Source: Rothia sp. (in: high G+C Gram-positive bacteria) (lineage in GTDB: Bacteria > Actinomycetota > Actinomycetes > Actinomycetales > Micrococcaceae). Taken from it: 64,000 nucleotides of DNA. Made by a program: the position numbers and the translations under genes. The stretch spans positions 1 through 64,000 of the forward strand of contig JAUNHE010000009.1 in NCBI GenBank assembly GCA_030524105.1. The letters are read 5' to 3'. The notes under the pieces are model-generated. The model saw only the letters and a list, made by a program, of their open reading frames with translations. It was not told the DNA's origin and searched no databases. Within the stretch, counting starts at the first letter, position 1, and each line of letters starts with the position of its first letter. Below, in pieces: positions 1 through 18,133 of this stretch.

Positions 1-54
1 GGTGGTGCGGGGGTTGGTGTTTTTGGCTGCGGGTGGGACTTTTGAATAAGCCTC
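1..54 (+). mobile_element. 3' end of an IS5-like insertion sequence
   Basis: Codons 2-49 read VVRGLVFLAAGGTFE followed by TAA. This matches the ends of two decayed transposases in the window: TGLIFYTAGENFE before the stop at about 1740, and VVRELVFLCGWGT on the minus strand near 17285. The stop codon lies inside the terminal repeat TTTTGAATAAGCCTC (40-54), which recurs at 1733-1747. This fragment shows no frame damage, so the copy to the left of the window may be intact. Family assignment rests on the resemblance to the longer remnant at 939-1747. Confidence 0.7.
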
Positions 55-938: not shown

Positions 939-1747
939 GAGACTTATTCAAAAATCCAACTCACCAAGAGACAACAGCCCCACCGAGCGGCAACCTTGAG
1001 GATAAAACATTAGTAATATTCTCAACACCGCACCGGAGAAACCGTTACACCGCCACCGGGCTTACCCTAACCCAATTCACCACACTAATGACCACCTTCA
1101 AAAACCGCACCAGCTGGACCCGCACCAGCAAAGGCAGACCACCAGCACTCACTCTCTCTGAACCAACTATCTCACGGGTTATTAACACCATCGAAAAGCA
1201 CTCGTAAAGATTCTCAAACCACTAACCAAAAACCACAAAGAAAGAAAGCCTGAAAGCACCGGGGTCCCTCGTCATTGACGGAACACTTATACCTACCTGG
1301 AATTGGCACTCATGAGCTAAAACGAACTATTCAGGAAAACACAAACGAGCTGGATTCAACCACCAAGTCATCTGCACACTCGATGGCAAGCTCCTGGTTA
1401 TCACAGATCCACTACCTAAGGCTAGGCATGATACGTATGCTTTCAGAGCTAACGGACTCAATGAGCTACTGGGTCCTTCGACTCTGACTGATAAGGGCTA
1501 TGCGGGCCTGGGGTTAGCCCCTCCGACCAAGCCTAAGCCTGACCAGTGACTGACTACCGGCGTGAAGGAGAATAACCGGCTACTCAATCGGTTACGCTCG
1601 GTGGTAGAGCAGGGGAAACGCTCAAGTCAAGACGTATCGGGTTCTGCACACTGGGTTCAGGCGGCCGTTGGGCTCGTATGAACGGGTGTTTTCTTCTGGT
1701 ACGGGGCTGATTTTTTATACTGCTGGAGAGAATTTTGAATAAGCCTC
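939..1747 (+). mobile_element. decayed IS5-like insertion sequence, left border of the RiPP island
   Basis: The left end GAGACTTATTC (939-949) is the near-exact reverse complement of the right end GAATAAGCCTC (1737-1747), giving an element of 809 bp. A damaged transposase fills most of it. Near the left end, the segment AGACAACAGCCCCACC recurs with few changes in the opposite orientation in the remnant at 17255-17914, so the two elements belong to the same family. Confidence 0.75.
1067..1743 (+). pseudogene. IS5-family transposase, frameshifted
   Basis: Fragments of one transposase appear in order but in different frames. They are a helix-turn-helix-like stretch (SKGRPPALTLSEPTI), the first catalytic block (VIDGTLIPTWNWHS, near 1270), ITDPLPKARHDTYAFRANG, the second block (LTDKGYAG, near 1485) and the last block (VKENNRLLNRLRSVVEQG, near 1565-1615). 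These carry the Asp, Asp and Glu expected of a DDE transposase. In-frame stops and frameshifts separate them, so the gene cannot be functional. A 70-codon frame at 1275-1487 is a by-product of this decay. Confidence 0.75.
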
Positions 1748-1805
1748 CCTAAACGCCATATAAATAACCCTCAAACTGGGTTATACCAATCGACATGATT
1801 TATTT

Positions 1806-1826
1806 ACTTCAGCAGGTAGCTGAAGT
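1806..1826. repeat. inverted repeat upstream of the RiPP operon
   Basis: A perfect 8-bp inverted repeat ACTTCAGC / GCTGAAGT with a 5-base loop lies about 110 bp upstream of the candidate promoter. It could be an operator or an old terminator-like hairpin. No T-run follows it. Confidence 0.4.
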
Positions 1827-1937
1827 GTGGAACTAGCCCAAGAGTATTCTAGTTAAATAGTTGGCAGTTGCATTCTACTTTGCTTACCGACCCCGTAGAA
1901 TAGTCAGAACTAATGCCAGTACGTATCAGGTTCAGTT

Positions 1938-1966
1938 TTGATACAGTGGTTCCTATCATATAAAAT
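1938..1966 (+). promoter_or_regulatory. candidate promoter of the RiPP operon
   Basis: TTGATA (1938-1943) and TAAAAT (1961-1966) are separated by 17 bases and lie about 50 bp before the first RiPP gene. The first gene has a ribosome binding site AGGAAG (2006-2011). The match to sigma-70 type elements is good, but the call is by eye only. Confidence 0.5.
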
Positions 1967-2017
1967 TGTTTCGATCCCTAGATTGCAAACTGCTTTGATA
2001 CTCATAGGAAGTTGACC

Positions 2018-3715
2018 ATGGATGACAGCGACAGGCCCTGGCTCAGAAAAGACACGATTTATGCACCTGTGTCCGGTGGCGTCCTTATCTCGAATGCCAC
2101 CACAAGCTTTGAGATTGCAGGTAATAATGCTTACGCATTATTTGATAAAATCGCGCCGTTATTCAACGGAAGCATGTCGGTGGGTGAAATTAAGACTTCC
2201 GTACCAGAAAACGTTTGGAAGCTGATGCTCCAAATTATTGAGCCACTAGCAGGGCACGGGTTTCTACGTTGGATACCCCAGGAAGATTTTGACGTCCTGG
2301 CGAAAGATGTCCGCGACAAATATTTAGACCAGCTTGCATTCCTCGCGCAGTACACAGACAAGCCTCATGCCGCGTTCTTAGATTTTTACAAAGCTAAAAT
2401 TGTGCTTGTAGGCAGCAAAGATCCAATTCTTGACGCTTTACAGACAAATCTGCTAGAAAATGGCGCCTCCCATGTAACCGTGGTCTCTACCATTGACGAG
2501 AATATGACCGGTGACCTATTAGTTTTCGGCCCCACAGGATTGACCCATCTGGACGTCATGAAAGGTAGCTTAACTGCGCAAATGGTAATTTGCCCAGCTG
2601 GGAACAAGATCTGGACTCTACCAGTCCGCTGGGCCAAGGGAGATGCTAACTGGCATTCCGGTCATAATTCAATGCAACAAGGTTCGCTGGTAGACCAATG
2701 GAATACTGCTTTCTTAGCAGCACGAGGAGGGAAACCGACGTGGAACTATGCCACTTCCTCTAAAGCTGTCCAAAGACTCTACGGTGCTCTACTCGCATAC
2801 GAAGTCTTCAAGGGTATCACTGGAGCGATTCCAGCTGAAACCGGCTCTGCGCTGTTCGCAATCGATTGTCTGACTGGTGAAACTGAGATTCATAAGGTCA
2901 CCCCGATATTTGCATCCATCGATTACAAGACTGACGAAGCACTCATAAAAGACCGTGACCTTATCAAACAGTGGCGCAGAGAAAACATTGTTTATACTCC
3001 CGCCCCGGACTTTTCCAGCGTGGACTCGCGAAGCAATGAGTACGACATGAACTGGGCAACTTTAGTTGATCCTGTAACTATGCCCGCAATCACATTTGAG
3101 GATCTAGATCTGGAACAAATCCCGCTAAAAGTCTCCGCCGTGCAAACTCGCTGGGGCATAGTGCGAACTGCAAGCGCATGGACAACCGCAGATGCCCGCA
3201 TTGATGCAATTGCAATCGCCTATGGTTTGGCACTCACGGTAAATGCACAAGATGAAGGCAAGCCTGCTTCAGTTGTGTTTGGGGTTGATAGAACCGCAAC
3301 ACAAGCAGTCTCACGAGCATTAGAACTGATTGTGAATACCATCGAGACTATTCCAGGAACAGCAACGAAGAACCATTCGATTCCAGGACGCCTCAAAGAA
3401 TTCATAGATGAGGTTTCCGGATGTGCGATCTCCTTTGAACGCATAGGTGAGATCGCAGGCTTCCAGCTAGAACGTGCCAGCTTTGATTGTTGGTCGCACA
3501 TCGCTGCTGGAGTAACTCGCGAGCGGGCACAAGCCAAGGCTGCAATCAACGTTCTCGGATCAGCACAGACAATGACAGCCTCAGCTATCCATCTTCAAAT
3601 TACAGAAGGATTCAACGACATATTCTCAGTGCCTCCCATCATCCGAACATTGGCCATTGCGAATGACTGGCATATTGCGCTCGTGTCTCCAGGACAAGAC
3701 TGCAAGGTAAGATGA
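2018..3715 (+). CDS. E1/ThiF-like RiPP maturation protein with leader-recognition domain (cyclodehydratase partner)
   Basis: 565 aa. Residues about 10-80 form a PqqD-like winged-helix stretch ending GHGFLRWI, the kind of RiPP recognition element that binds leader peptides. From about residue 125 a Rossmann-like segment (AKIVLVGSKDPILDAL) follows, but it lacks the GxGxxG and ATP-binding residues of active E1 enzymes. This is typical of the ocin-ThiF-like F-proteins of thiopeptide and goadsporin-type loci, which present the precursor to the YcaO enzyme. I chose the ATG at 2018 over the in-frame TTG at 2012 because AGGAAG lies six bases upstream. The stop overlaps the start of the YcaO gene by 4 bp. 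The assignment is by architecture and neighbourhood. A structural search with the N-terminal 90 residues would test the recognition-domain call. Confidence 0.75.
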   Translation: MDDSDRPWLRKDTIYAPVSGGVLISNATTSFEIAGNNAYALFDKIAPLFNGSMSVGEIKTSVPENVWKLMLQIIEPLAGHGFLRWIPQEDFDVLAKDVRDKYLDQLAFLAQYTDKPHAAFLDFYKAKIVLVGSKDPILDALQTNLLENGASHVTVVSTIDENMTGDLLVFGPTGLTHLDVMKGSLTAQMVICPAGNKIWTLPVRWAKGDANWHSGHNSMQQGSLVDQWNTAFLAARGGKPTWNYATSSKAVQRLYGALLAYEVFKGITGAIPAETGSALFAIDCLTGETEIHKVTPIFASIDYKTDEALIKDRDLIKQWRRENIVYTPAPDFSSVDSRSNEYDMNWATLVDPVTMPAITFEDLDLEQIPLKVSAVQTRWGIVRTASAWTTADARIDAIAIAYGLALTVNAQDEGKPASVVFGVDRTATQAVSRALELIVNTIETIPGTATKNHSIPGRLKEFIDEVSGCAISFERIGEIAGFQLERASFDCWSHIAAGVTRERAQAKAAINVLGSAQTMTASAIHLQITEGFNDIFSVPPIIRTLAIANDWHIALVSPGQDCKVR

Positions 3716-5307
3716 TGAGAGTTATCGAAGGGGCACGATATGTGGTTATACCAGACGAGAATACTTGTTACGTCTGCCTTCAGAAGCAGGTAAGAGATAC
3801 GGACAGCTTTGTTTTCCGAACCGGTAATCCTCTTAAAACTGTACATCCAAGCACCGCTAATCCATTTTTTGCACAAGCCCTGGAAACTGCACAGGAATGC
3901 TTCTTCGCTCACGGCATATCGATTAGTAAAAACTCGCTCGCAACGCGCGCGGCACATTCCACTTGTAGGCACATGCATGCTGACGAACAACAATGCTCTC
4001 AGGTATCGGGTTACCGGGCTCGAAGTCTCAAAGACTTTTTCAGAACTACGAAAGAAATCAACTTTGTGAGCCCTGTGCATGCAACCATCGGAATGAACAT
4101 CTACCATGACCTCAAGGGGCTTGGAACAGCAAAATCTTCCGGATTCATGATTCGTTACCGCGGTTCAGATTCATTTATGAGACCGTGGGGTGGACACTGC
4201 GAAAACTTTAATGACGCAGCTCGACTTGGCATTCTCGAAGGCATAGAACGCATTGAATGCGAGAGCGCGCCTAATGCTCCGTACAGTATCTCAGACAAGG
4301 CAGAGAAGATTGGACTCGATCAGTTCGGTCTAGATATCGGGCCATGGAAAATTCCTAATCCCAAGGTTGGGGCATGGTCGCCAGGGCGATTTCTGGACGA
4401 TAGGACATCAAGCTTTCTCGGCAGTGAAGTTGCGCTACCAGAACGACTCGTCTATTACGCTCCCACAGTCGATACCAGTCAGTGGGTGCAAGACTCTTCA
4501 AACGGCTGCGCGCTGGGCGGGTCCGAGCCCGAAGCAATCCTTTTCGGCCTCTTAGAAGTCATAGAGAGAGATGCATTTCTAGCTGCATGGTATGGCGGTC
4601 TCGACCTTGTACCTATCGATTTAAAAACGGTACAGAATCGCGTTTCGCAAAGCTATTTGCAACGTCTATCCTTATCTGGCGTAGAGGTTACCTTGCTCAA
4701 TGCCACGATTGGCGTGCAGATTCCAACGGTTATTGCAGTATGTGAGGAACCAGGTGGCTCAACTTGTGTTGGGGCAGGTTCTCATCCTGACCCAGAACGT
4801 GCGTTAAAGAGCGCACTCATTGAGGTAGCTTCCGACTTCCAGGTAGCAGCCGCACATCGCGAACAGCGTGCTGCAGAGCTAGATGCCATGCTTGCCGACT
4901 ACTCGCTAGTGCAAGTCATGGAAGACCATGCAGATATGTTTGCCAGCCCAGATGCACGCCCTCTAATCGCACGCTGGAGGCATCCTAATAAAGTTCCAGT
5001 TCCAATTACTGCTCTCAAACGCACGGAAATATATGGCAAGTCCGTTAAAGAAGACTTGCGATTCAGTATCCAGCAATGCCAGAATGCAGGTTTCAAACCG
5101 ATTGCATGTGATTTGACGGATGGTCTAGCTCGCACAGTTGGCGCACACGTGTGGAAAGTCGTTATTCCTGGCCTTATCCCGCTTGATTTTGGATGTTATC
5201 AGCGCGTTTACAGCATGAGTCGGTTAGAAAAGGTTGTCCGTTCTTTTGGAGATCTACCAGCTAGCAGCCAGTTCTATCCCGTTATGATTCCTCACCCATT
5301 TCCTTAG
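3712..5307 (+). CDS. YcaO-domain cyclodehydratase (azoline-forming)
   Basis: 531 aa. YcaO proteins use ATP to activate backbone amides so that Cys, Ser or Thr side chains cyclise to azolines. The ATP/Mg motifs are visible: GILEGIERIE (173-182), NGCALGGSEPEAILFGLLEV (264-283) followed by IERDAF, and GAGSHPDPERALKSALIEV (354-372). The usual Gln after the last Glu is replaced here (EVASDF). The C-terminus ends PHPFP, matching the PxPxP tail that many azoline-forming YcaO enzymes need. The N-terminus contains CYVC (19-22) and Cys85/Cys95, possibly zinc ligands of a degenerate C-domain. It is translationally coupled to the E1-like gene upstream and lies 10 bp before the dehydrogenase gene. It is the likelier main heterocyclase of the two YcaO proteins in the locus. 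Confidence 0.9.
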   Translation: MMRVIEGARYVVIPDENTCYVCLQKQVRDTDSFVFRTGNPLKTVHPSTANPFFAQALETAQECFFAHGISISKNSLATRAAHSTCRHMHADEQQCSQVSGYRARSLKDFFRTTKEINFVSPVHATIGMNIYHDLKGLGTAKSSGFMIRYRGSDSFMRPWGGHCENFNDAARLGILEGIERIECESAPNAPYSISDKAEKIGLDQFGLDIGPWKIPNPKVGAWSPGRFLDDRTSSFLGSEVALPERLVYYAPTVDTSQWVQDSSNGCALGGSEPEAILFGLLEVIERDAFLAAWYGGLDLVPIDLKTVQNRVSQSYLQRLSLSGVEVTLLNATIGVQIPTVIAVCEEPGGSTCVGAGSHPDPERALKSALIEVASDFQVAAAHREQRAAELDAMLADYSLVQVMEDHADMFASPDARPLIARWRHPNKVPVPITALKRTEIYGKSVKEDLRFSIQQCQNAGFKPIACDLTDGLARTVGAHVWKVVIPGLIPLDFGCYQRVYSMSRLEKVVRSFGDLPASSQFYPVMIPHPFP

Positions 5308-5317
5308 GAGTAAGACA

Positions 5318-6862
5318 ATGCAACCATGGTGTAATCCTGGCGAGGCAGCACTAGCGTACGCGAGCCTCATTCATTTTCGCGCGCGCCACGGAATGCTCGT
5401 CAACAACTGGAAAGTTAACTGGCATGAGGAACCACTAACGCATTCCTACTATGCCACGGACAGAATCCAGCCTATTGCACTACCTGATTTGAGCAGTGAA
5501 TTACTAACTGGGGTCAAAACATCTTCATCTAACTACATTGCCGGGCTTCTTTACGCAGCATATGGCTTCACAGGTCTTAGGCTTGTTACAAACCGCAACG
5601 ACAACGCAGACGTGTACCGGTCCATGGAGGCCATAAAATTTAGCCGTCACACCGCCTCGGGTGGAGGGCGATACTGCGCGGACTTTTATCTGGTTGAATC
5701 TGGTCAAGGCAATGATTCCCTTCCGCCCGGCATCTACCACTATTCGCCGCTTCGCCATGTCTGGGAAACCCTAACCGAGGGTGACTACACGCACTATGTT
5801 GCGAAAGCGCAAGGATACGTAACTACAGCCCAACGCTACGTTCTAATCACCATAGACTACTGGCGCAGCGGATTTAAATACAACGACTTCGCCTACCAGG
5901 CCACCGCAATGGATATTGGCACGGTTATTAGCTCAATTGCTGAAATAACTGGAAAACGTACTGCGAATACGTGGGACATGTGGGTGAATGAGGATGCCTT
6001 GGCCAAACTCCTCGAGTTAAATACCGACCGAATCGGCATCTATGTGGTGCAAGGATGGGGGGAACAAGTTCCGCTCAAGGAATCAGCTATCGCTTTGAAC
6101 AAGCCAAAAATCCCGAATCGAGTCGCATCAAATTTTTCGCAAGTGGTGGACTTTACAACTACCCTCGCTCTGCAAAATGACATGCAAAGTTACCCGCAAC
6201 GTCCCGCTCCGTTTGCCTGTGGAACCGTCCCGACAAATATGAGTGGGGCAAGAAATACTGACTGGTGGGACGCACTTCATCGCAGGCAAACAAGCTTTGG
6301 CAGGTTCACCGGCGAAGGGTACTCCACACAAACTCTGGAATCACTGCTAGACGCAGCAAACTTAGTGTGTAAACAATTTACTGCCCGCGATCACAGCAAA
6401 AATGGACTGAGATGGGAATATCTCATTTTTGTAAACAATATCGAGGGGCTTGATCCTGGAATCTACAGGTATCGAGACCGTAAGCTCAAGATATTGCAAG
6501 ATAAACCGCAACAAGATTTCCTTGCAGAAACCTACTTCTTAAAGAACTACGACGGACGAAAAGCTGCAGCGACTATTATCCCGTGCGGAAACGTGTTTGA
6601 AGTATCGCGGCTTTGGGGCGTACGCGGATACCGGCTTATCAACGCGTTGATTGGCGCTATATGTCAGGCAGTATCCGTCGAAGCGGTTCGATCCGGAGTA
6701 GGAACCGGCACTGCCCTTGGGTTCGATCCTGACGCGCACGCTAGACATGTTGGAATGGACAAAGACATGATGACACCAATGCTTATGATCATGACTGGTA
6801 TCGACAATCAGTACGCAGGAGAGTTTTACACAGACACGTCACTAATGCGAGGTACTATATGA
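5318..6862 (+). CDS. SagB-type (nitroreductase-fold) azoline dehydrogenase, tandem-domain
   Basis: 514 aa. SagB-type enzymes use FMN to oxidise thiazolines and oxazolines to azoles. The first half carries KFSRHTASGGGRYCADFYLV (about 107-126), the FMN-binding SGG region, and PPGIYHYSPL (about 136-145). The second half repeats the plan with RRQTSFGRF, ALL-type helix residues and GLDPGIYRYRDRKL, so two nitroreductase-like domains are fused. AGGAG lies 7 bases upstream of the ATG. The last four bases overlap the start of the dehydratase gene (ATGA), which indicates translational coupling. The C-terminal half keeps AVRSGVGTGTALGFDP. Which half carries catalysis cannot be told from the sequence. 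Confidence 0.85.
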   Translation: MQPWCNPGEAALAYASLIHFRARHGMLVNNWKVNWHEEPLTHSYYATDRIQPIALPDLSSELLTGVKTSSSNYIAGLLYAAYGFTGLRLVTNRNDNADVYRSMEAIKFSRHTASGGGRYCADFYLVESGQGNDSLPPGIYHYSPLRHVWETLTEGDYTHYVAKAQGYVTTAQRYVLITIDYWRSGFKYNDFAYQATAMDIGTVISSIAEITGKRTANTWDMWVNEDALAKLLELNTDRIGIYVVQGWGEQVPLKESAIALNKPKIPNRVASNFSQVVDFTTTLALQNDMQSYPQRPAPFACGTVPTNMSGARNTDWWDALHRRQTSFGRFTGEGYSTQTLESLLDAANLVCKQFTARDHSKNGLRWEYLIFVNNIEGLDPGIYRYRDRKLKILQDKPQQDFLAETYFLKNYDGRKAAATIIPCGNVFEVSRLWGVRGYRLINALIGAICQAVSVEAVRSGVGTGTALGFDPDAHARHVGMDKDMMTPMLMIMTGIDNQYAGEFYTDTSLMRGTI

Positions 6863-9450
6863 AGTTTGTAGATAACTACACGCAGCTACGCCTTGGTGGT
6901 ATATCGCAAGAATCAATGCGCAAACTTTACTACCCGGACTTTTCTAACAGTATGAATAGGATCATATATACAAAGTCGGAATTATTACGAAACAGAGAAC
7001 AAATTAGTGATGCTCTCCATATAGCTATTGGAGAGATTGGGCAAGACAAGCGTAAAGCTGTGATCTCATTTAGACGCGAACTCTACAAACTGAATATCTC
7101 TAAAGCTGTCTCCATCCTTGATGAACTCGACAACAACACGCGTCAAACCGTTAACAAACATGCTCCTAAAATCATCGACCTAGCGTACGCTTTCGCACAA
7201 GGATACAAAGTAATCAGCGAGAATTTTGAGAAAGCAATGCAGTGGGAACGTGAGGCTATCTCAAAGTTTTTAAACAACCAAGAATTCATGACTGGTCTAA
7301 CAATTTCTGCGCCCTCGCTTGTTCCTGCGATTAAAAGACTCAGTGAACATATTTCAACTCGATCCGTAGACAAAGAAGATAGGAAAGCTGAGCGGTCATT
7401 GCACTCCTATATTCTTCGTGCGGGGAACAAAACTAGTCCGTTCTCAACACTCAGTCCGATTTCCATTGTGTCTAGGAGTAATAATAATCCGGTCAGCCCC
7501 AAAAGGGCTTCACGCCCCTCCATCTATCCAATCGCGAGAGTATTCAATCAGCTCCTATCAGACCCATCCAAGCTTGGCCATCTTAAAGTCCGTATCTCAT
7601 CCTCGGTCCGCGAAGTTGATAACGAAATGATCATTAACCGCACAACCTGGGAATTCAAAGACAACAGCTCGCGCACCGACTTCGCTAAGTGCACCGAAAG
7701 CACTGTCCACGTCAAGCAAAGCGCCCTCACAAACACCGTGGCCAGCTTGATCGAGCCAGGCAGCAGCACAACACTAGGGAAACTTGCCGGACAAATCAGC
7801 GAAGGAGCCGACATTGAACTTACAACCTCATACGATATTCTAGGCGACCTTATCCGCCTTGGATTCCTTGAGATACCAATCCTATCTCTCCATCCCTATG
7901 ATGCGAAACAGCTTAACAAAATCGCGAGCAATGTGCGTGTGTTTGACGAATACCTCGCAACGCTCATCGAAGAGTATTTTGAGCGATCCAAAAGGTTAGT
8001 CAATCTCAAGACCTCCACGGAGCGCATAACTGATATCAGGGCGTTACACGATACAGTTGCCCGCATGTATAGAGCGGCTGGAATTGTAGGCCAGCTACCA
8101 CGATCAGTTGTCTACGAGGATGTCATTGTTGACGTTAGCTTGCCTAGCGTGTATTTTGACCAAGAAGTCTCAGACGAAACTATCCAGACATTATTTACGC
8201 TGCTTGACTTTTTGGATGATTCGAACGTCAAGCATGCTCTCATGGTCGGATACTTCAACAGCCAGAATACCTCCAGTATGGGAGTCGACGAGTTTATACA
8301 AGGATTCATCGAGGAATTGTTCGGCTCCTTCGAATCGTACGACCTCGCCTCTGTGAAAGACGAGAATCTTGCAACCGATCCTTGGTTGCGTTGGGGTGAT
8401 GCCTGGACCTGGGTAGCTGCAAGGCGCCAATTAACCAACGACCTTAAAGCTCACGCGGTTCATGAAAAGGTACAGGCTGGCATGGCTACTATAAACGACA
8501 TCATTCCTATAGACGCGACTGAAACACTGCGTAACGCCTGCAGGTTGGTACAACTATTTAAACCGACGTTCCGGCATACAAACCTTCTCGTACAACGCGG
8601 CGAAAATGCGCAATGGATAGTGAATGATGCCTTCGGGGGTATCGGCTTTCCGGTTTCGCGGTTTACCCATCTGCTAGACGAAGAAACGACCATGTACACC
8701 CAAGATGTGGAGAATCATGCCCAGAAATATGGGATTTTGTTGGCAGAGCTATCAGGTGGCGCTCTCTTCTCAAATCTAAATCTACATGAGCCGCTATTTC
8801 ACAGACGCCTAGTACTACCCGGTGAGCCAATCAGGGATACCGCACAACAAACGATTGTATTAGATGATCTAGAGGTAAGATTCAACGAAAACGAGAGCCG
8901 TCTTGCTATCTATCGAGGCTCCGAACAGATACACCCCATCTACTCCGGATACCTTGTCCCAGCAGCGACGCCGCAGCGCAACCAGCTTCTTTCGCTGTTC
9001 ACTCCATCGGGTCAGATGAGCCGGAAACTCACTGAAGTTGTATTCGACAAGCCAGCACCAGGGCACGTGGTACTTTTTCCGAGGATTTATTTAGACAACC
9101 TGGTTATTGCGAGAGCGAGGGTAATCCTGCCCGCAATAGATACCCCAAATCAAAATCCGCTGACAGCATCAGGATACATCGAATGGATCGAATTCTGGAC
9201 AGACAGAGGTTTGCCTATGTCTAGTTTTATTCGCATACATGATGAGTCATCCTCATCAAATAAACCATATTTTTTTGATATACTACAGGTGCTGTCCTGC
9301 TCTAACCTGTACAACAACATTCGCAAGGCAGTAGGAGAGGCCTTTGTGGAGATCACTGAGGTTCTTCCGGAAAACCCGTCCGTCAGGCACAAGGGCACCG
9401 CTGTGGTGAGTGAACAGATGATAGGTATCAGCTGGACAGAGGACGCGTAG
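6859..9450 (+). CDS. LanB-type dehydratase, glutamylation (N-terminal) protein
   Basis: 863 aa. This is the large Lant_dehydr_N part of a split class I dehydratase, which transfers glutamate from Glu-tRNA to Ser and Thr of the precursor. Conserved stretches include YILRAGNKTSPFS (about 184-196) and, near the end, FVEITEVLPENPS and VVSEQMIGISW, a usual finish for this domain. No elimination domain follows in the same chain. That activity is supplied by the next gene, as in the TbtB/TbtC and GodF/GodG pairs. Start and stop overlap the neighbouring genes (4 bp and 1 bp). The protein is unusually Ser/Thr- and Lys-rich compared with high-GC homologues, in line with the AT-richer island. Confidence 0.85.
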   Translation: MKFVDNYTQLRLGGISQESMRKLYYPDFSNSMNRIIYTKSELLRNREQISDALHIAIGEIGQDKRKAVISFRRELYKLNISKAVSILDELDNNTRQTVNKHAPKIIDLAYAFAQGYKVISENFEKAMQWEREAISKFLNNQEFMTGLTISAPSLVPAIKRLSEHISTRSVDKEDRKAERSLHSYILRAGNKTSPFSTLSPISIVSRSNNNPVSPKRASRPSIYPIARVFNQLLSDPSKLGHLKVRISSSVREVDNEMIINRTTWEFKDNSSRTDFAKCTESTVHVKQSALTNTVASLIEPGSSTTLGKLAGQISEGADIELTTSYDILGDLIRLGFLEIPILSLHPYDAKQLNKIASNVRVFDEYLATLIEEYFERSKRLVNLKTSTERITDIRALHDTVARMYRAAGIVGQLPRSVVYEDVIVDVSLPSVYFDQEVSDETIQTLFTLLDFLDDSNVKHALMVGYFNSQNTSSMGVDEFIQGFIEELFGSFESYDLASVKDENLATDPWLRWGDAWTWVAARRQLTNDLKAHAVHEKVQAGMATINDIIPIDATETLRNACRLVQLFKPTFRHTNLLVQRGENAQWIVNDAFGGIGFPVSRFTHLLDEETTMYTQDVENHAQKYGILLAELSGGALFSNLNLHEPLFHRRLVLPGEPIRDTAQQTIVLDDLEVRFNENESRLAIYRGSEQIHPIYSGYLVPAATPQRNQLLSLFTPSGQMSRKLTEVVFDKPAPGHVVLFPRIYLDNLVIARARVILPAIDTPNQNPLTASGYIEWIEFWTDRGLPMSSFIRIHDESSSSNKPYFFDILQVLSCSNLYNNIRKAVGEAFVEITEVLPENPSVRHKGTAVVSEQMIGISWTEDA

Positions 9451-10520
9451 TGCAATTTTTAACTAAAGTTCCAACATCGCTCAAGTATGAATATATGTTG
9501 CGCGAAGAGAACTCTTGGCGTGCCTATCACATCTTTTACGGTGGTACTCCGCTCACGGTACTCCGTGACTGTTTGCTACCACTGGCACAGAATATGGTTG
9601 ATGAAGGCGATATTATTGAATTTTTCTTTATCAACTACTGGCTGGAAGGATCACACGTACGGCTGCGTCTGCGTGTCCATCCCGACAATGTTAATCATGT
9701 AAACGAAAAAGTGATTGCACGTGTAGAGGACTACCTAGCAAAGCACCCCTCCTATCATCCGATGGCTGAGCTCGCCGACAACAACTTCTACGAGAGCCTC
9801 TTCGAAGGCGAGTTCACAACGGCAGATCGACCGAAATATTTCGACGAGTTTGGAAATCCGAGGTTTGCTAAAAACAATTCAATCGAGATTCGCGAGTATG
9901 AACCAGAATGGCTACGATACGGCGGTGAGGTTGGCATGCTCATTTCTGAGCGTCAATTCGTGGATTCAACTCATCTGATGATCAAACTGATGGAACTCGG
10001 AAATATGGGTGTTAGAACGATCTTGCTTGGTATTTCAACCCAGATCACGTTCATCACCGCGGTATGTATGTTAAAAGATCTCAGCCTCATCGAAGATTTC
10101 TTTGTCGCATACCACCGCCGGTGGACCGATGGTTACGACATGAACCCTGCATATGAAACAAAAGAGGGAAGGGTTCAACATACTGCGACAGTTAACAATA
10201 TCCGCAAGAAGATTGTGCCGCGTGCAAGCTCCATCCTCTCAGGGAACGTTGAAGATTTTCCACAAATTCTTAAAGACTGGGTAAGGATTTGCACTAGAGC
10301 GCGCAAACAAATCGAAGATGCTTGTACAATTGCCCCATTAACGTTCAAATACGAGGACGGAATACGCGAAGTTTCAGACCCACAGGATGCAGCATGGTCT
10401 TTGTGTCACTCATTCATTCATATGACTAACAATCGTATTATGGTTTCAGTAGCTGACGAGGCATTCATTGCCTACCAGATTGTGGAAGCAATGCGGAAGG
10501 CAAAGACCAATGACAACTGA
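9450..10520 (+). CDS. SpaB_C-type thiopeptide biosynthesis protein (glutamate eliminase)
   Basis: 356 aa, GTG start sharing its G with the stop of the dehydratase gene. It has the thiopeptide-type SpaB_C plan: SWRAYHIFYGGTPLTVLRDC (residues about 22-41) at the N-terminus, then FFFINYWLEGSHVRLRLRV, where the HVRLR signature is prominent, and a helical C-terminus ending in SLCHSFIHMTNNRI. In loci with a separate glutamylation protein, this family removes glutamate to leave dehydroalanine or dehydrobutyrine. The [4+2] pyridine synthases of thiopeptides belong to the same fold. Because only one member is encoded here, elimination is the required role and cycloaddition is unlikely, though it cannot be excluded. 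An ATG at 9495 is an alternative start but would remove conserved sequence. Confidence 0.8.
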   Translation: MQFLTKVPTSLKYEYMLREENSWRAYHIFYGGTPLTVLRDCLLPLAQNMVDEGDIIEFFFINYWLEGSHVRLRLRVHPDNVNHVNEKVIARVEDYLAKHPSYHPMAELADNNFYESLFEGEFTTADRPKYFDEFGNPRFAKNNSIEIREYEPEWLRYGGEVGMLISERQFVDSTHLMIKLMELGNMGVRTILLGISTQITFITAVCMLKDLSLIEDFFVAYHRRWTDGYDMNPAYETKEGRVQHTATVNNIRKKIVPRASSILSGNVEDFPQILKDWVRICTRARKQIEDACTIAPLTFKYEDGIREVSDPQDAAWSLCHSFIHMTNNRIMVSVADEAFIAYQIVEAMRKAKTNDN

Positions 10521-11601
10521 GCTGAAAAACTGGGTACCAAAAAAACAATCGCAGCTTGAGCTTGGCCCAGCCAGATGGAACGGCACAGCCATCATTTCCG
10601 ATCTATGTGTTGGAGGCTCTGAACGCCTAATTAGCATCGGCCTTGTTGAAAGGCTAATTCTAGAAAGGGTTGACGGCAAGAAGAGCGTAGGCGATATCGA
10701 GCAGTGCTTACAAGCGGATGGGCTGGGACTACCTAACGGCAAACTCTTCACAACATTGAATAAGTTCGCATTCTTTGGAGTTATTGAGCGCCCTTTTACA
10801 GTAAAGCAAGGGACGAGGCAGGTCGATGCACAGTCCAGACAGGCGCCGTCGGCTCGAAACAATCAAGTTACGAGCGTAAGCAGACAACGAGGCATACTGG
10901 CGCTATGGAAGACTCTACCCTGGCTAGCTTCTGAAACTGCGTTCACGCTACTTGCTATCTTCGGGATTGCCTCTTTCGTTGCCCTTAGCATAACGGTTCC
11001 AAGTGCCTTACTTGCGATCAAGAGCTCACAGTTTATCTATGTAGCAATGGGTATCTTCGTCGCTGTTTCATGGTTAACACTCGTCACGTTTACACACGAA
11101 AATGCGCATGCTGCAGTATTCAATGCGTACTCAAAACGTGAACCATATTTAGCCCTAGCACGTTTTGGAATTCTTCCTATGCCAAATACACACATGCCTG
11201 GCATCTCCTTAATGCAGCCAAAACACAAAGTAGCGGTGATTGCCGCAGGGCCGCTAGTGTCGATGCTTCTTGCCACAATCCCCATTACTCTATTTTGGAG
11301 TATCGAAATACCCGAACTCCAAACTATTGCAGCCATCTGTATCCTCATCGACGTAATTATCATAGGCCTTAGCATTTCGTTCTTTCCAAACACCGATGCC
11401 ACCAGAATCCTTGAAACAATCAGCGGAGTAGACCAAATCCAAGCCGTCAGCTTCAACATACTAACGCGCAAATACAAGCTCCCCTCGTCGCTGCCAGGGA
11501 AAACTCGCGTAGCGGTATGCGCATATCCAGTCTTGCTGTTAGTTGCAATCGGAACATGGCTAGCAGCAGTAGGGTGGGCCATCCGGCTCATTCTAAACTA
11601 G
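10510..11601 (+). CDS. membrane M50-like zinc protease with PqqD-like domain (candidate leader peptidase)
   Basis: 363 aa. The start at 10510 overlaps the eliminase gene by 11 bp. A frame open from 10468 merely extends into that gene. Residues about 25-90 look like a PqqD-type winged helix (LILERVDGKKSVGDIEQ, then KLFTTLNKFAFFGVIE). Several membrane segments follow, with H196-E-N-A-H200 (HExxH) in the sequence TFTHENAHAAVF and an NTDAT motif with D296 near the C-terminus. This is the arrangement of zinc ligands in site-2 (M50) proteases. An intramembrane protease directly before the precursor gene, carrying its own leader-binding-like domain, suggests leader removal at the membrane. It could also be a degenerate M50 protein with a binding role. 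No other protease is present in the locus. Confidence 0.75.
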   Translation: MTTELKNWVPKKQSQLELGPARWNGTAIISDLCVGGSERLISIGLVERLILERVDGKKSVGDIEQCLQADGLGLPNGKLFTTLNKFAFFGVIERPFTVKQGTRQVDAQSRQAPSARNNQVTSVSRQRGILALWKTLPWLASETAFTLLAIFGIASFVALSITVPSALLAIKSSQFIYVAMGIFVAVSWLTLVTFTHENAHAAVFNAYSKREPYLALARFGILPMPNTHMPGISLMQPKHKVAVIAAGPLVSMLLATIPITLFWSIEIPELQTIAAICILIDVIIIGLSISFFPNTDATRILETISGVDQIQAVSFNILTRKYKLPSSLPGKTRVAVCAYPVLLLVAIGTWLAAVGWAIRLILN

Positions 11602-11630
11602 CCCTGAAGGGCAAAATAGAAAGGAACGCT

Positions 11631-11813
11631 ATGAATCTCGAAGCATTAGCAACTGAGCTAGAGGCCTTTACCTCGGAAACCTTTGAAGTTAAGGACTACG
11701 TAGACTACGCAGACATGGCCTTTGGCTCCACCTGTTCGTCTTCTTCCTCATCTTCTTGCTCTTCAACCTGCTCCTCGTGCTGCACCTCAACATCGTCTTG
11801 TGCAGCAGCGTAA
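11631..11813 (+). CDS. RiPP precursor peptide, Ser/Cys/Thr-rich core
   Basis: 60 aa, preceded by AAAGGAA. The leader (about 1-32) is acidic and contains SETFEVKDYVDYADMAFG, resembling the leaders of thiazolylpeptide-type precursors. The core (about 33-60) contains 15 Ser, 6 Cys, 4 Thr and a terminal Ala-Ala-Ala, and nothing else. The cysteines are at 35, 43, 47, 50, 51 and 57, and a run of seven Ser fills 36-42. Every non-Ala residue is therefore a possible substrate for cyclodehydration or dehydration by the upstream enzymes. The boundary after FG is inferred from composition. An in-frame open frame begins at 11517, but the ATG at 11631 has the ribosome binding site and follows the protease gene by 29 bp. 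Confidence 0.88.
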   Translation: MNLEALATELEAFTSETFEVKDYVDYADMAFGSTCSSSSSSSCSSTCSSCCTSTSSCAAA

Positions 11814-11868
11814 ATCACACAAAAGAGTAAAAGGAACGCCTAAAAATAGATCTAACCCGGTATAAAAA

Positions 11869-11914
11869 CCGTCACCGCCCGGGCATTTACCTGGAAATAA
11901 CCCGGCGGTGACGG
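11869..11914 (+). terminator. long hairpin between precursor and exporter genes
   Basis: CCGTCACCGCC (11869-11879) pairs perfectly with GGCGGTGACGG (11904-11914), and the inner bases CGGG/CCC can extend the stem. No T-run follows, so this is more likely a partial terminator or an mRNA-stabilising or processing structure that raises precursor transcript over downstream genes than a simple intrinsic terminator. It sits 55 bp after the precursor stop. Confidence 0.6.
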
Positions 11915-12119
11915 CCGAACCGACTAAAGTGTGCTTCTACACCAAATGTTGAGAGGCTTGATATATCTTGATATTTATCAGGTAGATAGGTTTTACCAAA
12001 GGTAATTTTCCTCCAACCGAGGCATTACAGCACAACCCACTAACCATCGCGATAGAACAAAACGTGTGGAATAAGCGATACCAATCCGCGTATCCCACAT
12101 TTTCACAAGGAAGTTATGA
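11915..12119 (+). promoter_or_regulatory. upstream region of the exporter genes with CTTGATAT direct repeats
   Basis: The 205-bp gap contains no gene. CTTGATAT occurs twice, 10 bp apart (11957-11964 and 11967-11974), each containing a TTGATA hexamer like the -35 of the candidate promoter at 1938. A second promoter for the exporter and YcaO-2 genes is plausible. No convincing -10 at ideal spacing was found. AAGGAAG (12108-12114) is the ribosome binding site of the next gene. Confidence 0.35.
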
Positions 12120-13028
12120 ATGACAGATCCAATTGTGGATATCAGAGATATGACCGTCAAGATCAAAGGGAAAACTATCCTTGATGGCATCAATCTTGAG
12201 GTTAAACCTGGATCATTTCACGGAATCATCGGCCCTAACGGAGCAGGAAAAACCACACTTTTTACGACCATTCAGGGATTTTGCGCACCAGCTCATGGCA
12301 CAGTCCGCCTTCTGGGACAAAACCCCTATCCACGAAACATCGGTCTTCTAGGTCAGATTGGGATACAACCACAGCGTTCCTCTTTCTTTCCGAAAACTAC
12401 TCTTTTAGAACACCTCACCGTTGTTGCAGAGCTGCAAGGAGCGCCGCAAAGTAGAGTGTCACAGCTCATCGAAGAGCTCAATCTCATGCATGCCATAAAG
12501 ACCAAAGTTGAGGCTCTCTCAGGTGGTGAACGTCAGCGTCTAGCCGTTGCAACCGCAATCATTCATCAGCCAAAAGTACTGTTCCTAGATGAACCGACTG
12601 CCGGGTTGGACCCTGAAACCAGACGCAACCTTGTTTCGCTGCTTCAAAGTACTGATTTAGACGGCGTAACTACGCTCTACACTACGCACTTTCTAGATGA
12701 AGCTGAACGCCTGTGCAACGTGGTGTCCATCGTGGATGAGGGCAAGATTCTCATTACCGAGAGCCCCCGCAAGCTGATTGAGAAGGCAGCTCTTGGATCC
12801 ACGGTGCTACTTCCGCACGCGCTTCACCAGGCAGACATAATTTCTGCCAAATTTGGTGAGGGCCAAGTTCGAGTTACCCAGGAAGGGATCGCAATCCGCA
12901 CCAGTGACACGGCAAAACTTTTCATTGCCCTGGAATCCATTGGAGTTACAACCAGTGGTGCCCACGTGTCAGAGGGAAGGCTCGAGGATGTTTACTTAAC
13001 AATCACTGGGAAGGACTACGTGATATGA
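12120..13028 (+). CDS. ABC transporter ATP-binding protein (RiPP export or immunity)
   Basis: 302 aa. All ABC signatures are present: Walker A GPNGAGKTTLF (about 40-50), LSGGERQRLAVA, Walker B VLFLDEPTAGLDP and the H-loop TTHF. The C-terminal third (from about 225) is the extension common in drug and lantibiotic-type exporters. It is coupled to the permease by a 4-bp ATGA overlap. ATG at 12120 is preceded by AAGGAAG at correct spacing. An out-of-frame ATG lies at 12116. Its position in the locus implies export of the modified peptide, self-protection, or both. Confidence 0.9.
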   Translation: MTDPIVDIRDMTVKIKGKTILDGINLEVKPGSFHGIIGPNGAGKTTLFTTIQGFCAPAHGTVRLLGQNPYPRNIGLLGQIGIQPQRSSFFPKTTLLEHLTVVAELQGAPQSRVSQLIEELNLMHAIKTKVEALSGGERQRLAVATAIIHQPKVLFLDEPTAGLDPETRRNLVSLLQSTDLDGVTTLYTTHFLDEAERLCNVVSIVDEGKILITESPRKLIEKAALGSTVLLPHALHQADIISAKFGEGQVRVTQEGIAIRTSDTAKLFIALESIGVTTSGAHVSEGRLEDVYLTITGKDYVI

Positions 13029-13756
13029 ACTCGTACAAGTCGTTATCGAAAACTATGCTGAAATATGATTTGCGCGATTGGTCCACTCTGTTTTTTACTT
13101 TTGCCTTTCCAGCTGCCTTACTATTTATTCTTACGACTACTTTGAAAGACTCAGCTCCCGGCACGGATTTAACGGGTAGCATTAGCGCGAATATGATAGC
13201 ATTTGGTGCCGCTTTCGTAGGAATTTACGCGGGAGCCACTCACTTGGCACTGTGGCGTGAAAACGGTATGTTCAATGTGCTTAGAAACTTCCCATTGTCT
13301 TCAAATACTGTGCTTGCCGCGCAGGCATCAGCCGGTACACTTTTGCTTTTAGGACAAATTCTACTGCTGTTTGTACTTGCATTGATCCTCGGCGTATCGC
13401 CAGCTGCAACCTTGCCCATCGCAGTCATTCCTGCCGTATTCGGATATCTTCTATTCTTCTTCGTCGGTGTTGCACTAGGTATCTTCGTGCCATCAATGGC
13501 GGGTGTTTCCATGGCAGCGACATTCATCATTATTCCGCTCGGCATTATTGGTGGAGCGATGATGCCGCTAGAAATGTTGCCGGATTGGGCTCAGAGCATT
13601 GCTCCATACACGCCGATTTACCATATGCGAGAAAGTATTTCTATGGCGCTCATTAATGTCGGAACCTGGAAGGATTTCGGCATCGGCATGGTGTATCTGA
13701 TTACTGTGGGCTTCGTATTGTGCTTATTGTCCCAGCGGTTCATGAGATTCAAATAA
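13025..13756 (+). CDS. ABC-2 type transporter permease
   Basis: 243 aa with about six hydrophobic segments. The first is LFFTFAFPAALLFILTTT, and a pair in the middle surrounds FFVGVALGIFVP. The sequence MMPLEMLPDWAQSIAPYTPI is the loop before the last helices that is typical of ABC-2 exporters. It forms a transporter with the preceding ATPase. The stop is followed 17 bp later by the start of the second YcaO gene. Confidence 0.85.
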   Translation: MNSYKSLSKTMLKYDLRDWSTLFFTFAFPAALLFILTTTLKDSAPGTDLTGSISANMIAFGAAFVGIYAGATHLALWRENGMFNVLRNFPLSSNTVLAAQASAGTLLLLGQILLLFVLALILGVSPAATLPIAVIPAVFGYLLFFFVGVALGIFVPSMAGVSMAATFIIIPLGIIGGAMMPLEMLPDWAQSIAPYTPIYHMRESISMALINVGTWKDFGIGMVYLITVGFVLCLLSQRFMRFK

Positions 13757-13773
13757 GCCAAACTGCCCACGAG

Positions 13774-15519
13774 ATGAATATGTTTACTGAAGTCGCACAG
13801 AATCTCTTTACTATTCCCGGAGGAATTCTTGTAACTACCCAAGATCTGCGAGATAGTTTGGAGGTCGAAGAGCTACGGGAGCGCTGGTTACGTACGCGCC
13901 AGAACCAAATAGTAGAAATTTGCGCGAACCCTTCAGCAAAGCGTGTATTTACTGGCAGCCAGATCTTTTCTGGAATAACAACAAGTCTTCAACATGCATG
14001 CCTCGAACTAAGCAGAATCGAGGAAAACTGTAACAGCGTATGGGAGTTTCACACAGCACGTGGACAGATTCGACGAGGTAGTCCTACCTTTGGCAGAATC
14101 TGGGAACGGGGGAATGGATTGTCACGATACCCTTATATTGATGCTGAATCGAAAAAAGGGGATAGTCCTGACGCAACACAACAGACTAGAGGCAGTTCCC
14201 CCGACAGTCGTGTCGTAAGCCAGAAGCTTCGTGCAAAACCTTTGGCAGATATATACCTGCCCCGTGAAGTACTCACAAATCCTGTTGCATCCTACCTGGG
14301 CTGCCCACCAAATCTAAAGATCGGGTGGGTAACTTCCTCTCCAGCTACTGGTAAAACTCCAAATTGGAATGGGAAAGAAGTTAGAAGTCTATCTTGGTCT
14401 GGGCATTTGAACAGCTTCAGCTTAAGTGAAACTGCCGCACTTTTAGAGGGCATCGAACGCAGAGTCGGAGCACTTGAGAGTGAACCGCGGTCGGTTCTTT
14501 GTAAAGCCAGCGAATTGGACGGAACTATACTCACGCCCGCAGATTTTCCACCTTACCCAGATGCCTTCTACGATGTGTTTGGCGCTAAATACAACACCGA
14601 TCAGCCTCATGAATGGGTGCGTGTCACGCGCCTTGCTGATGGTGAGAAGGCATGGATACCGCGTGAATATGTGTATTACGGACAGCAAATGAAGTACCAA
14701 CCGTGGGCGTTCAGTACTTCATCAGGGTGCGCCACCGGCTCTACCCTTGCGGAGGCCCAGCTTTTTGGGGTGTTGGAACTTATCGAGCGCGATTCGTTTG
14801 TTGGGTGTTGGTATGCCAGCATCAATGCGAGTCCAATCGATTTGAGCAGTATCACTAGCCTCGAAAAACTGAGAGTGCGGTCCTCATTACTGGGGATTGA
14901 ACTTAAATGCGGGTTACTGCCATCCATCATTGGTATCCCTGTGGTGGTTTCATCCGCACTGATTTCTGATGAAGTCGGACCTGTACTTGCGGTCGGGGCG
15001 TCATGCCACCCTGATATAACGCAAGCTGTTAGCGGAGCCATCAATGAAGTGTGGACTTACATTAATGAGCGTGCTGCATTCGCACGAAACCATCGCGATA
15101 AAATTGAATACCTACATTCTAACCCCACGCTGTGTGCTAGCATCGAAGACCACCCGCTATTTGGCATGTATACTACAGAACAAGCATACCTGGAGTTCAC
15201 AGGAACCGATACCAGTAACTCTATATCCTTCGAATCTGATTGGCAAAGCTGGAGCGAGCAGCCCATCAACGAACTTCTAGATTACATTATTACTCGTTTG
15301 CACAATGAAGATATAGATGTCTGGACTCACAGACAAACATCTAAATTTGAGCAATCATTAGGTTTAGAAACCGTTATGACCGTGTCTCCGAACTTAATCC
15401 CTATTGACTTTGGCTGGAAGCAGCAACGCGTCTTGCAATCCGAACGACTCAGAAAAATTATCAAGGAGCATCATGGATCAAAGGCAAAACCACGATTACT
15501 CCCCCATTCGTTCTCCTAA
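13774..15519 (+). CDS. second, divergent YcaO-domain protein
   Basis: 581 aa counted from the ATG at 13774; another ATG follows at 13780. Frames opening earlier run inside the permease gene. The YcaO signatures are ALLEGIERR (about 221-229), SSGCATGSTLAEAQLFGVLE (about 315-334) followed by LIERDSF, and VGASCHPDITQAVSGAINEV. The Gln expected after the last Glu is Trp here (EVWTY), and the C-terminus is LPHSFS rather than PxPxP. Residues 1-190 show no domain I recognise. No TfuA partner is nearby, so thioamidation is not supported. It may act on a different residue class (for example Ser/Thr rather than Cys) or be a helper subunit. Its place after the exporter, apart from the main biosynthetic run, is unusual. 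Confidence 0.75.
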   Translation: MNMFTEVAQNLFTIPGGILVTTQDLRDSLEVEELRERWLRTRQNQIVEICANPSAKRVFTGSQIFSGITTSLQHACLELSRIEENCNSVWEFHTARGQIRRGSPTFGRIWERGNGLSRYPYIDAESKKGDSPDATQQTRGSSPDSRVVSQKLRAKPLADIYLPREVLTNPVASYLGCPPNLKIGWVTSSPATGKTPNWNGKEVRSLSWSGHLNSFSLSETAALLEGIERRVGALESEPRSVLCKASELDGTILTPADFPPYPDAFYDVFGAKYNTDQPHEWVRVTRLADGEKAWIPREYVYYGQQMKYQPWAFSTSSGCATGSTLAEAQLFGVLELIERDSFVGCWYASINASPIDLSSITSLEKLRVRSSLLGIELKCGLLPSIIGIPVVVSSALISDEVGPVLAVGASCHPDITQAVSGAINEVWTYINERAAFARNHRDKIEYLHSNPTLCASIEDHPLFGMYTTEQAYLEFTGTDTSNSISFESDWQSWSEQPINELLDYIITRLHNEDIDVWTHRQTSKFEQSLGLETVMTVSPNLIPIDFGWKQQRVLQSERLRKIIKEHHGSKAKPRLLPHSFS

Positions 15520-16105
15520 TCCAGATCAAAAATACCCGAACGGTACGCAACTGAAGCATGGTACTACAGTAAATATAGGTTTTCTGTGTACATTCACGAT
15601 ACTTTATTTGATACCGATTTTATCGACTTCATCCGTATACCTTGCATTTCTTGCTGCTGGCCTGTTTCTAGCACTTTTCGGTGTTGGGCTTGTTTTTACT
15701 AGGCTAGTAACGTCCTCTCCTGCCAAAATACACAAGGTAAGAAGCAGGAAGCAAGCCGTCCTCATCACCATAACCTCTTTCGCGGAGTTTGGTGCGGCTG
15801 CAATTGGCCTCTGGATCGGATTTTGGCTAGATATTTGGTGGCCATTTGGAATTCTTCTAGCAGGAACGGTAGCTGTCCATTTTCTATCTCTCACGTGGAC
15901 CTATCGGCGAACCCTGGACTACTATGCCTTGACTTTAGCCATTATATCGTTACTCCTACTGATCACAAGCCCGATGCCCTTGTTGCGAGATCTCTGGGCC
16001 GTATCTGGTGCCATTATGGCTTCCTGCACTGCACTCTACGTTGTGGAACTTTCGTGTACACTGCGATCCTTGTCAGAATCACAAGTATCCAGACCATTTT
16101 CATAA
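15473..16105 (+). CDS. unknown six-helix membrane protein, possible immunity function
   Basis: 210 aa from the ATG at 15473, which follows AAGGAG at four-base spacing. The gene overlaps the YcaO-2 gene by 47 bp. About 40 polar residues precede about six hydrophobic segments, with a basic loop KIHKVRSRKQ between the second and third. I recognise no family. Translational linkage to the RiPP genes suggests a product-related role such as producer immunity or a transporter accessory, but this is inference from position only. Confidence 0.6.
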   Translation: MDQRQNHDYSPIRSPNPDQKYPNGTQLKHGTTVNIGFLCTFTILYLIPILSTSSVYLAFLAAGLFLALFGVGLVFTRLVTSSPAKIHKVRSRKQAVLITITSFAEFGAAAIGLWIGFWLDIWWPFGILLAGTVAVHFLSLTWTYRRTLDYYALTLAIISLLLLITSPMPLLRDLWAVSGAIMASCTALYVVELSCTLRSLSESQVSRPFS

Positions 16106-17254: not shown

Positions 17255-17914
17255 TCATTTGTAAGGTACCCCAGCCGCATAAAAACACTAACTCTCGTAC
17301 TACCGAAAATGCCTGCCTGTATGAACCCAGTGGCTGCCTGAAATCTGTGTACAGAACCTGTCGGTTCTTAGCCTGAGCTTTTCACCCACTCCACTACCGA
17401 CCGCAGACGATTGAGTATCCGATTATTCTTTTTATGCTCCCGATTTAGCCGTTGTCCAGACTTAGGACGAACTGGGGTTTGGCCATGCCCTGTCCCACGT
17501 ATCCCTTATCGGCCAAAATTCAGGAATCTAGCAGCTTATCTAGCCTGTGAGCTCTGTAAGGCATGAGCACCATGTTTGGCCTCAGGTAGTGGATCGGTGA
17601 TGCCTAGGAGTTTGCCATCTATCACGAGGAATCCTGGTACTTTCAGGTTGTTTGCCAAGATTCAAACTAGTGGGGTGGGGTTTCTTGGGTGAGCTTGTAA
17701 GGTTTTCGGTCTGGTTTGGTCCAGGTGAGATGGCTGCTTAGTAACGTGGGAACTGCTTGGCTGTGAGCGGCGGTTGTACGCTGGTGTAGCAACGGTTCTT
17801 CCGGTATGGCTTGAGGTTATTTGTAGAGATTTAACACTCATATTTTTGCCGTCTGATGGGGCCGTTGTCTAGTTGGTGGCGGTTGGGTTGTACCCCCTCT
17901 TATGAATAAGCCTC
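17255..17914 (-). mobile_element. decayed IS5-like insertion sequence, right border of the RiPP island
   Basis: On the minus strand the element begins with GAGGCTTATTC (17914 down to 17904). It continues with AGACAACGGCCCCATC, the counterpart of the left remnant, and then broken transposase segments: FLVIDGKLLGITDPLPEAKH, KKNNRILNRLRSVVEW and VVRELVFLCGWGT. The alignment to the left copy ends near 17255, and the second terminal repeat is missing. It is inverted relative to the copy at 939-1747. Multiple stops and shifts make it non-functional. Confidence 0.7.
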
Positions 17915-18133
17915 TATAGAAGCGCCTCTTTGCCTTGGCCTCATTTTCCACTAGCCCCTCGTCGATCTGTCTATTTTATCTGCAACAAGACTGGAAAAGA
18001 TTTCTAATAAAAGAATAATAGCCAGGAGAAATATACTCGCAAAGATAAACTATTCTTATCTTCTAAGAAGGACCTCATAAAAACCAGAACTATTAATATG
18101 CAACCTAAGTGTTCTGACTCCTGGGAATAAATC

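Follow-up and report, generated by a model that had tools for sequence, protein, structure and literature searches.

The window analysed here, 64,000 nucleotides of contig JAUNHE010000009.1 from Rothia sp. (GenBank assembly GCA_030524105.1, positions 1 to 64,000), carries at 2018-16105 eleven open genes, all on the forward strand and with all frames intact, which probably constitute a working pathway to a linear peptide that is freed of its leader, counts about 28 residues and is rich in thiazoles or (methyl)oxazoles and in dehydroalanine (Dha) or dehydrobutyrine (Dhb). The genes succeed one another as those for an E1-like protein, a first YcaO protein (YcaO1), a SagB-type dehydrogenase, the two halves of a split LanB dehydratase (LanB-N and LanB-C), a membrane protease, the precursor, the ATPase and the permease of an ABC exporter, a second YcaO protein (YcaO2) and a further membrane protein. 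Pfam and NCBIfam profile scans, which covered ten proteins of this region, support the families that a sequence-only reading had previously assigned to these genes, in the order it gave and on one strand. Its broader claim, that of a complete locus for a ribosomally synthesised and post-translationally modified peptide (RiPP) which unites a membrane protease with azole formation and dehydration, is likewise supported by families, motifs, syntenic relatives and conserved precursors. Its statement that most early genes overlap by 1-11 bp holds for four junctions (4 bp for E1-like/YcaO1, and 4, 1 and 11 bp for SagB/LanB-N, LanB-N/LanB-C and LanB-C/protease), but not for YcaO1 and SagB, which are separated by a 10-bp gap.

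The same gene set in the same order is found in Ancrocorticia populi, in an Actinomycetaceae metagenome-assembled genome (MAG), in a Brevibacterium MAG, where the copy is split over two contigs, and in G165, a genome of the window's own family, while Actinomyces oris, Streptomyces and others carry most of the cluster. Fifteen loci with YcaO, SagB, LanB-N and LanB-C were counted, namely the window, G165, A. populi (L012/L036), the Actinomycetaceae MAG (L013/L037), the Brevibacterium MAG (L014/L038), A. oris (L022), G981, G956, G195, G252, G234, G338, G284, G1149 and Streptomyces sp. NBC_00316. Twelve of the 15 showed the protease (recognised by eye from its HExxH motif in G252 and NBC_00316), the corresponding spot having been translated in all but G338, G284 and G1149, and a second YcaO was seen in 11, closer by score to YcaO2 than to YcaO1 in nine of them, window included, and about equally close to both in G234 and G195. 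This synteny, together with the codon conservation of the precursor core described below, rules out chance or artefact as the origin of the locus. In G195, SagB comes first and the YcaO genes lie downstream; this locus (L009), from the window's genus, represents a second, divergent cluster type, with another gene order and the precursor tail NTYTSSCSSSSTSSCTCCCA. One in-frame TAG was observed within the YcaO2 match of L037 (G944:C24), which may mark a disrupted gene or stem from an error in sequencing. Two further candidates were set aside: L015 (Streptomyces iconiensis), matching the E1-like and YcaO queries only, was dropped as a relative, and L010 (G022), showing only weak scattered matches, was left out of the counts.

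Such loci are infrequent. In a sample of 197 genomes of the window's family LanB-N was matched in 4, and LanB-C was matched in 5 of 396 genomes of a phylum-wide sample (both counts include the window's genome), in 5 of 213 genomes of the A. populi family and in 1 of 60 of the family of the Brevibacterium MAG, this being the MAG itself; at E 1e-60, YcaO1 matched only its own genome across a class-wide sample (1/394). Among plasmid records, four were matched by LanB-N, 11 by YcaO1 (E 1e-20) and 16 by LanB-C, 11 of the latter belonging to Staphylococcus at ~24% identity; the records of A. oris and NBC_00316 were examined individually.

Azole formation would begin with the E1-like, ocin-ThiF-type F protein (2018..3715), whose likely start, ATG 2018, is preceded by AGGAAG. 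It matches the ocin_ThiF_like model TIGR03693 over residues 12-165 with 59.9 bits, far below the cut-off of 561.9, and its residues 11-88 match the solved RiPP recognition element (RRE) of PbtF (structure 8t19, E 5.9e-5). Through this N-terminal RRE the protein would bind the leader, in its ETFEVKDY region, and present the core to the cyclodehydratase YcaO1 (3712..5307), predicted to form azolines at the six cysteines first. YcaO1 matches PF02624 (180.8 bits) and ends in a PxPxP motif, PHPFP, shared by 5/5 aligned relatives (6/6 overall); the available text of PMC7136475 presents the PxP motif as a mark of azoline-forming YcaO enzymes. The SagB-type FMN dehydrogenase (5318..6862), with 96.1 bits for TIGR03605, over its cut-off of 78.4, and 44 bits for Nitroreductase, would then oxidise the azolines to azoles.

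YcaO2 (13720..15519, with an alternative start at ATG 13774) also matches PF02624 (167.5 bits), and in both YcaO proteins a long N-terminal region lacks a Pfam match. YcaO2 would add rings of its own, with Ser/Thr-derived oxazolines the most likely type. A different role for YcaO2 within the same pathway, in thioamidation, amidine formation or as a partner protein, is a possible though doubtful alternative, suggested by the absence of PxPxP from its C-terminus (it ends in PHSFS and its A. oris counterpart in PHPFS, while two further alignment rows stop early) and by lactazolicin clusters, whose second YcaO, also without the PxP motif, is likewise of unknown role in the portion of PMC7136475 available. 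Against such a role, residues 236-585 of the 599 in YcaO2 are covered by the SagD-family profile, with 171 bits relative to a cut-off of 219.25, and no TfuA-type family was found among the ten proteins scanned.

The precursor consists of a 32-residue leader ending in MAFG (11631..11726) and a core, STCSSSSSSSCSSTCSSCCTSTSSCAAA, which with its stop codon occupies 11727..11813. It scores 42.7 bits for NF033400 (cut-off 30) and 30.8 bits for the thiopeptide precursor family TIGR03892 (thiopep_precurs, cut-off 25), and is labelled by NCBI models as a 'thiazolylpeptide-type bacteriocin'. The 28 core residues comprise 15 Ser, 6 Cys, 4 Thr and 3 Ala, so that 25 of the 28 are Cys, Ser or Thr. The calculated mass of the core is 2558.848 Da before modification and would fall to 2438.691 Da with six thiazoles or, to take one example, to 2268.533 Da with six thiazoles, four oxazoles and five Dha, each azole removing 20 Da and each Dha 18 Da. 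Nine close copies are available, one in the window and two each in G165, A. populi and the Actinomycetaceae and Brevibacterium MAGs, and their cores vary only at positions 14, 16 and 20 (S/T) and 27 (A/T), while the window core differs from the other eight, over 28 codons, by 13-17 silent and 2-3 amino-acid changes. The conservation of FG-STC in all nine points to a leader/core border between MAFG and STC. Copies from A. oris (four), G981 (one) and G956 (two) keep FG-STC and ETFEVKD with other C/S/T runs, and precursors of G252, G338, G195 and G1149 show a related leader with a different leader/core border; scans of the G234 and G284 loci found no precursor. The A. oris cluster (L022) belongs to a 415-kb record labelled as a plasmid, and three different cores occur among its four precursors. 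In Streptomyces sp. NBC_00316, a C/S-rich open reading frame at L046 4242-4415 (+) fits a precursor, and the public annotation places over it, at 4223-4474, an antisense hypothetical protein.

The product may be antibacterial. That the peptide is made but serves in signalling or as a cytolysin instead of acting on bacteria is an unlikely, though not negligible, alternative: spongiicolazolicins are described as devoid of antibacterial activity in the available part of PMC8838263, and the bacteriocin name applies by family only.

The window's single precursor, relative to two in each of the four closest relatives, is flanked by sequences that, judged by eye, are collinear, on the upstream side, with the region preceding the first copy of the relatives and, on the downstream side, with that following their last one. 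This arrangement fits, without proving it, the loss of a second precursor by recombination between tandem copies. Between precursor and exporter, an RNA hairpin is predicted at 11869..11914 (+); the fold of 11855-11960 gave a z of -4.07, and none of 200 shuffles was as stable. Hairpins following the precursor in the four relatives gave z values of -2.66, -1.68, -3.62 and -6.67, that of A. populi being the least convincing, as 9 of 200 shuffles fold equally well. No Rfam match was found in 1-18200. The hairpin may serve to raise the level of the precursor transcript. Promoter and terminator scans showed no excess over shuffled sequence (18 sites against 19.3 and 14 against 13.4, respectively), and thus no such site is claimed.

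Removal of the leader, probably at MAFG/STC, would fall to the M50-type membrane metalloprotease (10510..11601, likely start ATG 10510). Its residues H210, E211 and H214 of HExxH, and P307 and D310 of PxxD, are invariant in 8/8 aligned sequences, and the homologue at the same locus position in a Streptomyces-like genome (L024) passes the M50 model PF02163 with 35.7 bits; this homologue gave 73.5 bits for the daptide metalloprotease model, below the cut-off of 300, and no NCBIfam model matched that of A. oris. A weak PqqD match (E 0.061) suggests that the N-terminus is perhaps RRE-like. M50 proteases reported for epipeptides and pearlins, that of the epipeptide EpeX being thought to cleave and export it (PMC10885120, as far as its available text goes), provide a precedent for a leader-cutting role. 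The mature peptide would be exported by the ABC pair, formed by the ATPase (12120..13028; PF00005, 112.9 bits) and the permease (13025..13756; PF01061, 56.9 bits). The last membrane protein (15473..16105, likely start ATG 15473), which may confer immunity or be an export partner, has counterparts 28-45% identical, also located 3' of YcaO2, in the four close relatives; none was detected in the A. oris cluster, and profile scans assigned it no family above cut-off.

Dehydration is attributed to the split LanB. LanB-N (6859..9450) matches PF04738 (Lant_dehydr_N) with 68 bits (cut-off 28) and the TbtB structure 6ec7 (E 2.8e-11), its match to the goadsporin protein structure 9jhq being marginal (E 0.19); it would load Glu from Glu-tRNA onto the remaining Ser/Thr, mainly those beside azoles. 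LanB-C (9450..10520) exceeds the cut-off of PF14028 (Lant_dehydr_C) with 121.9 bits, is the single match to this family in the genome and would eliminate Glu to leave Dha or Dhb. Two of its motifs are invariant in 9/9 aligned sequences (Y150, P152, E153, Y157, G158 and G159; H324, M325, N327, N328 and R329). With a six-sequence profile, the first region, YxPExxRYGG, aligns with two full-length dehydratases, 5ehk and 9g04, while HMTxNR, the second, aligns with 5ehk. Elimination in NisB is carried out by a histidine and arginines. The alignment of the L024 homologue of LanB-C with TbtD shows a gap at YGG and ends ahead of the second motif. On these alignments the motifs resemble those of an eliminase more than those of a pyridine synthase, although, since the matches of the LanB-C family to solved structures are weak (9g04, E 0.003; TbtD, 0.0079; 5ehk, 0.11; TsrE, 0.22), this evidence is supportive rather than proof.

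Several observations weigh against the assignment of the locus to a linear azole peptide as proposed. Both YcaO proteins fall below the TIGR03604 cut-off of 219.25 (191.9 for YcaO1 and 171 for YcaO2), and no second YcaO was seen in G956, where the contig edge intervenes, nor in G284, G1149 and NBC_00316. The M50 match of the window protease is weak (PF02163, 14.1 bits, below the cut-off of 27.2). TsrE (7cww, E 0.22) retains part of the first LanB-C motif, and the pyridine-synthase model TbtD_PbtD_pyrid gives 65.3 bits on LanB-C, far below its cut-off of 325, and 59-92 bits on four homologues, exceeding the thiopep_ocin model in two of these four (92.5 vs 87.5 and 74.6 vs 63.3). In addition, the product and its activity are predictions from the genes, and the insertion-sequence remnants around the island leave room for it to be silent.

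The pyridine-synthase scores and the TIGR03892 match of the precursor bear on a further alternative, in which the product is a macrocyclic thiopeptide or pyritide and LanB-C, with or without an eliminase activity besides, is a [4+2] pyridine synthase, the leader leaving in the cycloaddition step. Such an outcome appears improbable. LanB-N needs an eliminase, while LanB-C is the only PF14028 protein of the genome, so that the second match expected of a thiopeptide genome, a pyridine synthase beside the eliminase, is absent genome-wide; LanB-C keeps motifs closer to those of eliminases, its pyridine-synthase score is low and the locus contains a separate protease. A thiopeptide macrocycle is therefore considered unlikely, and the linear peptide carrying azoles and dehydrated residues is preferred.

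The island adjoins ruvB, as the sequence-only reading had noted, and lies among insertion-sequence remnants. Decayed remnants, in inverted orientation, lie within 1-2000 and 16106-18133 on its two sides; the left one can be delimited to 945..1747 and the right one to 17320..17915, with outer limits set by eye and no strand assigned. Their segments 1382-1678 and 17320-17619 match in inverted orientation with 68% identity over 302 nt (E 2.8e-23), and the end motif GAATAAGCCTC occurs at 44, 1737 and 17904. The GC content of the cluster is 0.478, relative to 0.522 from 18134 to the window end. In 4/4 same-genus genomes inspected ruvB is followed by what is presumably a secD-like gene, and in three of these four a gene that we take to be yajC-like lies 112, 136 and 116 bp from ruvB. 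The contig that begins at window base 1 (C8) and contig C9, which ends ~1.6 kb past a YajC match, both terminate in stretches similar to the insertion-sequence remnants of the window, and the island thus most likely sits between yajC and ruvB, the two contigs being unjoined.

The relationships of the cluster proteins are reversed regarding those of the genomes. By IleS, the window's genome shares 68% identity with G165, from the same family, 59% with A. populi and 58% with the Actinomycetaceae MAG, while LanB-C shows 59, 75 and 82%, respectively, and YcaO1 48, 59 and 69%. As the cluster proteins have their nearest counterparts in genomes that IleS places further away, the cluster was apparently acquired by horizontal transfer. 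That it is now a decaying silent passenger between insertion sequences is most improbable, since the remnants on both sides, the lower GC and the reduction to one precursor would agree with it, but every frame is open, HExxH and PxPxP are intact and the character of the precursor core is unchanged.

Comparison with described systems shows what is shared and what is not. In agreement with the same early reading, most enzymes have counterparts in thiopeptide loci (F protein, YcaO, SagB-type enzyme, split LanB and precursor models, as for thiomuracin, micrococcin P1 and others) and in goadsporin (split LanB with azole enzymes, here also without a pyridine synthase). In goadsporin, azoles are formed first, by YcaO and dehydrogenase, and Dha is then generated next to, and in the product before, azoles by the split LanB (PMC5303826, available text), the sequence of events also envisaged here. 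The goadsporin pathway differs in having one cyclodehydratase (GodD), relative to two YcaO proteins in the window, a 19-residue core, leader removal ascribed to the peptidase domain of the ABC protein GodB, relative to an M50-type protease here, and the N-acetyltransferase GodH; neither an N-acetyltransferase nor a peptidase-ABC transporter was found among the ten proteins scanned. Dehydrazoles such as carnazolamide (PMC10676384, available text) also combine azoles and Dha in one peptide, but through a LanM-type DUF4135 enzyme, a domain that none of the ten proteins contains and in whose place the window has the split LanB. Spongiicolazolicins (PMC8838263, PMC11583998), likened to the present peptide by description only, are likewise long and linear, with 28-29 residues among which azoles and dehydrated positions occur.

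The closest layout is that of the coryneazolisins, a class that Cox et al. 2015 (PMC4603692) predicted from Corynebacterium clusters in which LanB-type dehydratases accompany two D proteins and a [4+2] enzyme is absent; a literature search for the name returned this paper only. As in these clusters, as far as their available description goes, the locus has two YcaO proteins, a split LanB, no [4+2] enzyme, transposable elements around it and an uncharacterised product. However, their core is given as 10 C/S/T, Ile and 5-7 C/S/T, relative to 25 consecutive C/S/T and no Ile here, and the available description makes no mention of an M50 protease. Only two cases of F proteins outside thiopeptide and heterocycloanthracin (HCA) clusters are reported there. 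A further trait of the class is the fusion of a C-protein domain to one YcaO; in the window, the region N-terminal to the YcaO domain is long in both proteins and has no Pfam match. With an Ile-free core and a comparison made by description only, membership in the class is not claimed; the chemistry appears goadsporin-like and the layout that of coryneazolisins, with a different core and an M50-type protease, and membership in either is left unclaimed. In the available text of PMC10668837 an uncharacterised linear azol(in)e-containing peptide (LAP) cluster is reported in Rothia dentocariosa, and the present locus is not described in the accessible parts of this paper, of PMC13347742 (Rothia), PMC4746626 and PMC8549736. 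The sequence-only reading had not recognised the gene set; a literature search that left out most subscription journals indeed found no characterised locus with all components, but the set and order do exist in other actinobacteria, the precursor is named by models and coryneazolisins had been predicted.

Tentatively, and at less than even likelihood, these clusters may define a distinct and widely scattered actinobacterial RiPP subfamily of near-pure C/S/T peptides, converted into extended azole and Dha stretches by an F-dependent pair of YcaO proteins (one for Cys, the other for Ser/Thr) and a split LanB, with a leader-binding, RRE-fused intramembrane metalloprotease freeing them from the leader at the exporter. 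The window offers an open and compact 14-kb cluster for a peptide type predicted from genomes, for which the literature search found no isolated product. Through this locus it could be tested how two YcaO proteins and a LanB share a single run of Ser, Thr and Cys, whether an intramembrane protease serves as leader peptidase, and what role near-pure C/S/T peptides play. The apparent transfer of the cluster between families, among insertion sequences, would indicate that the class moves.

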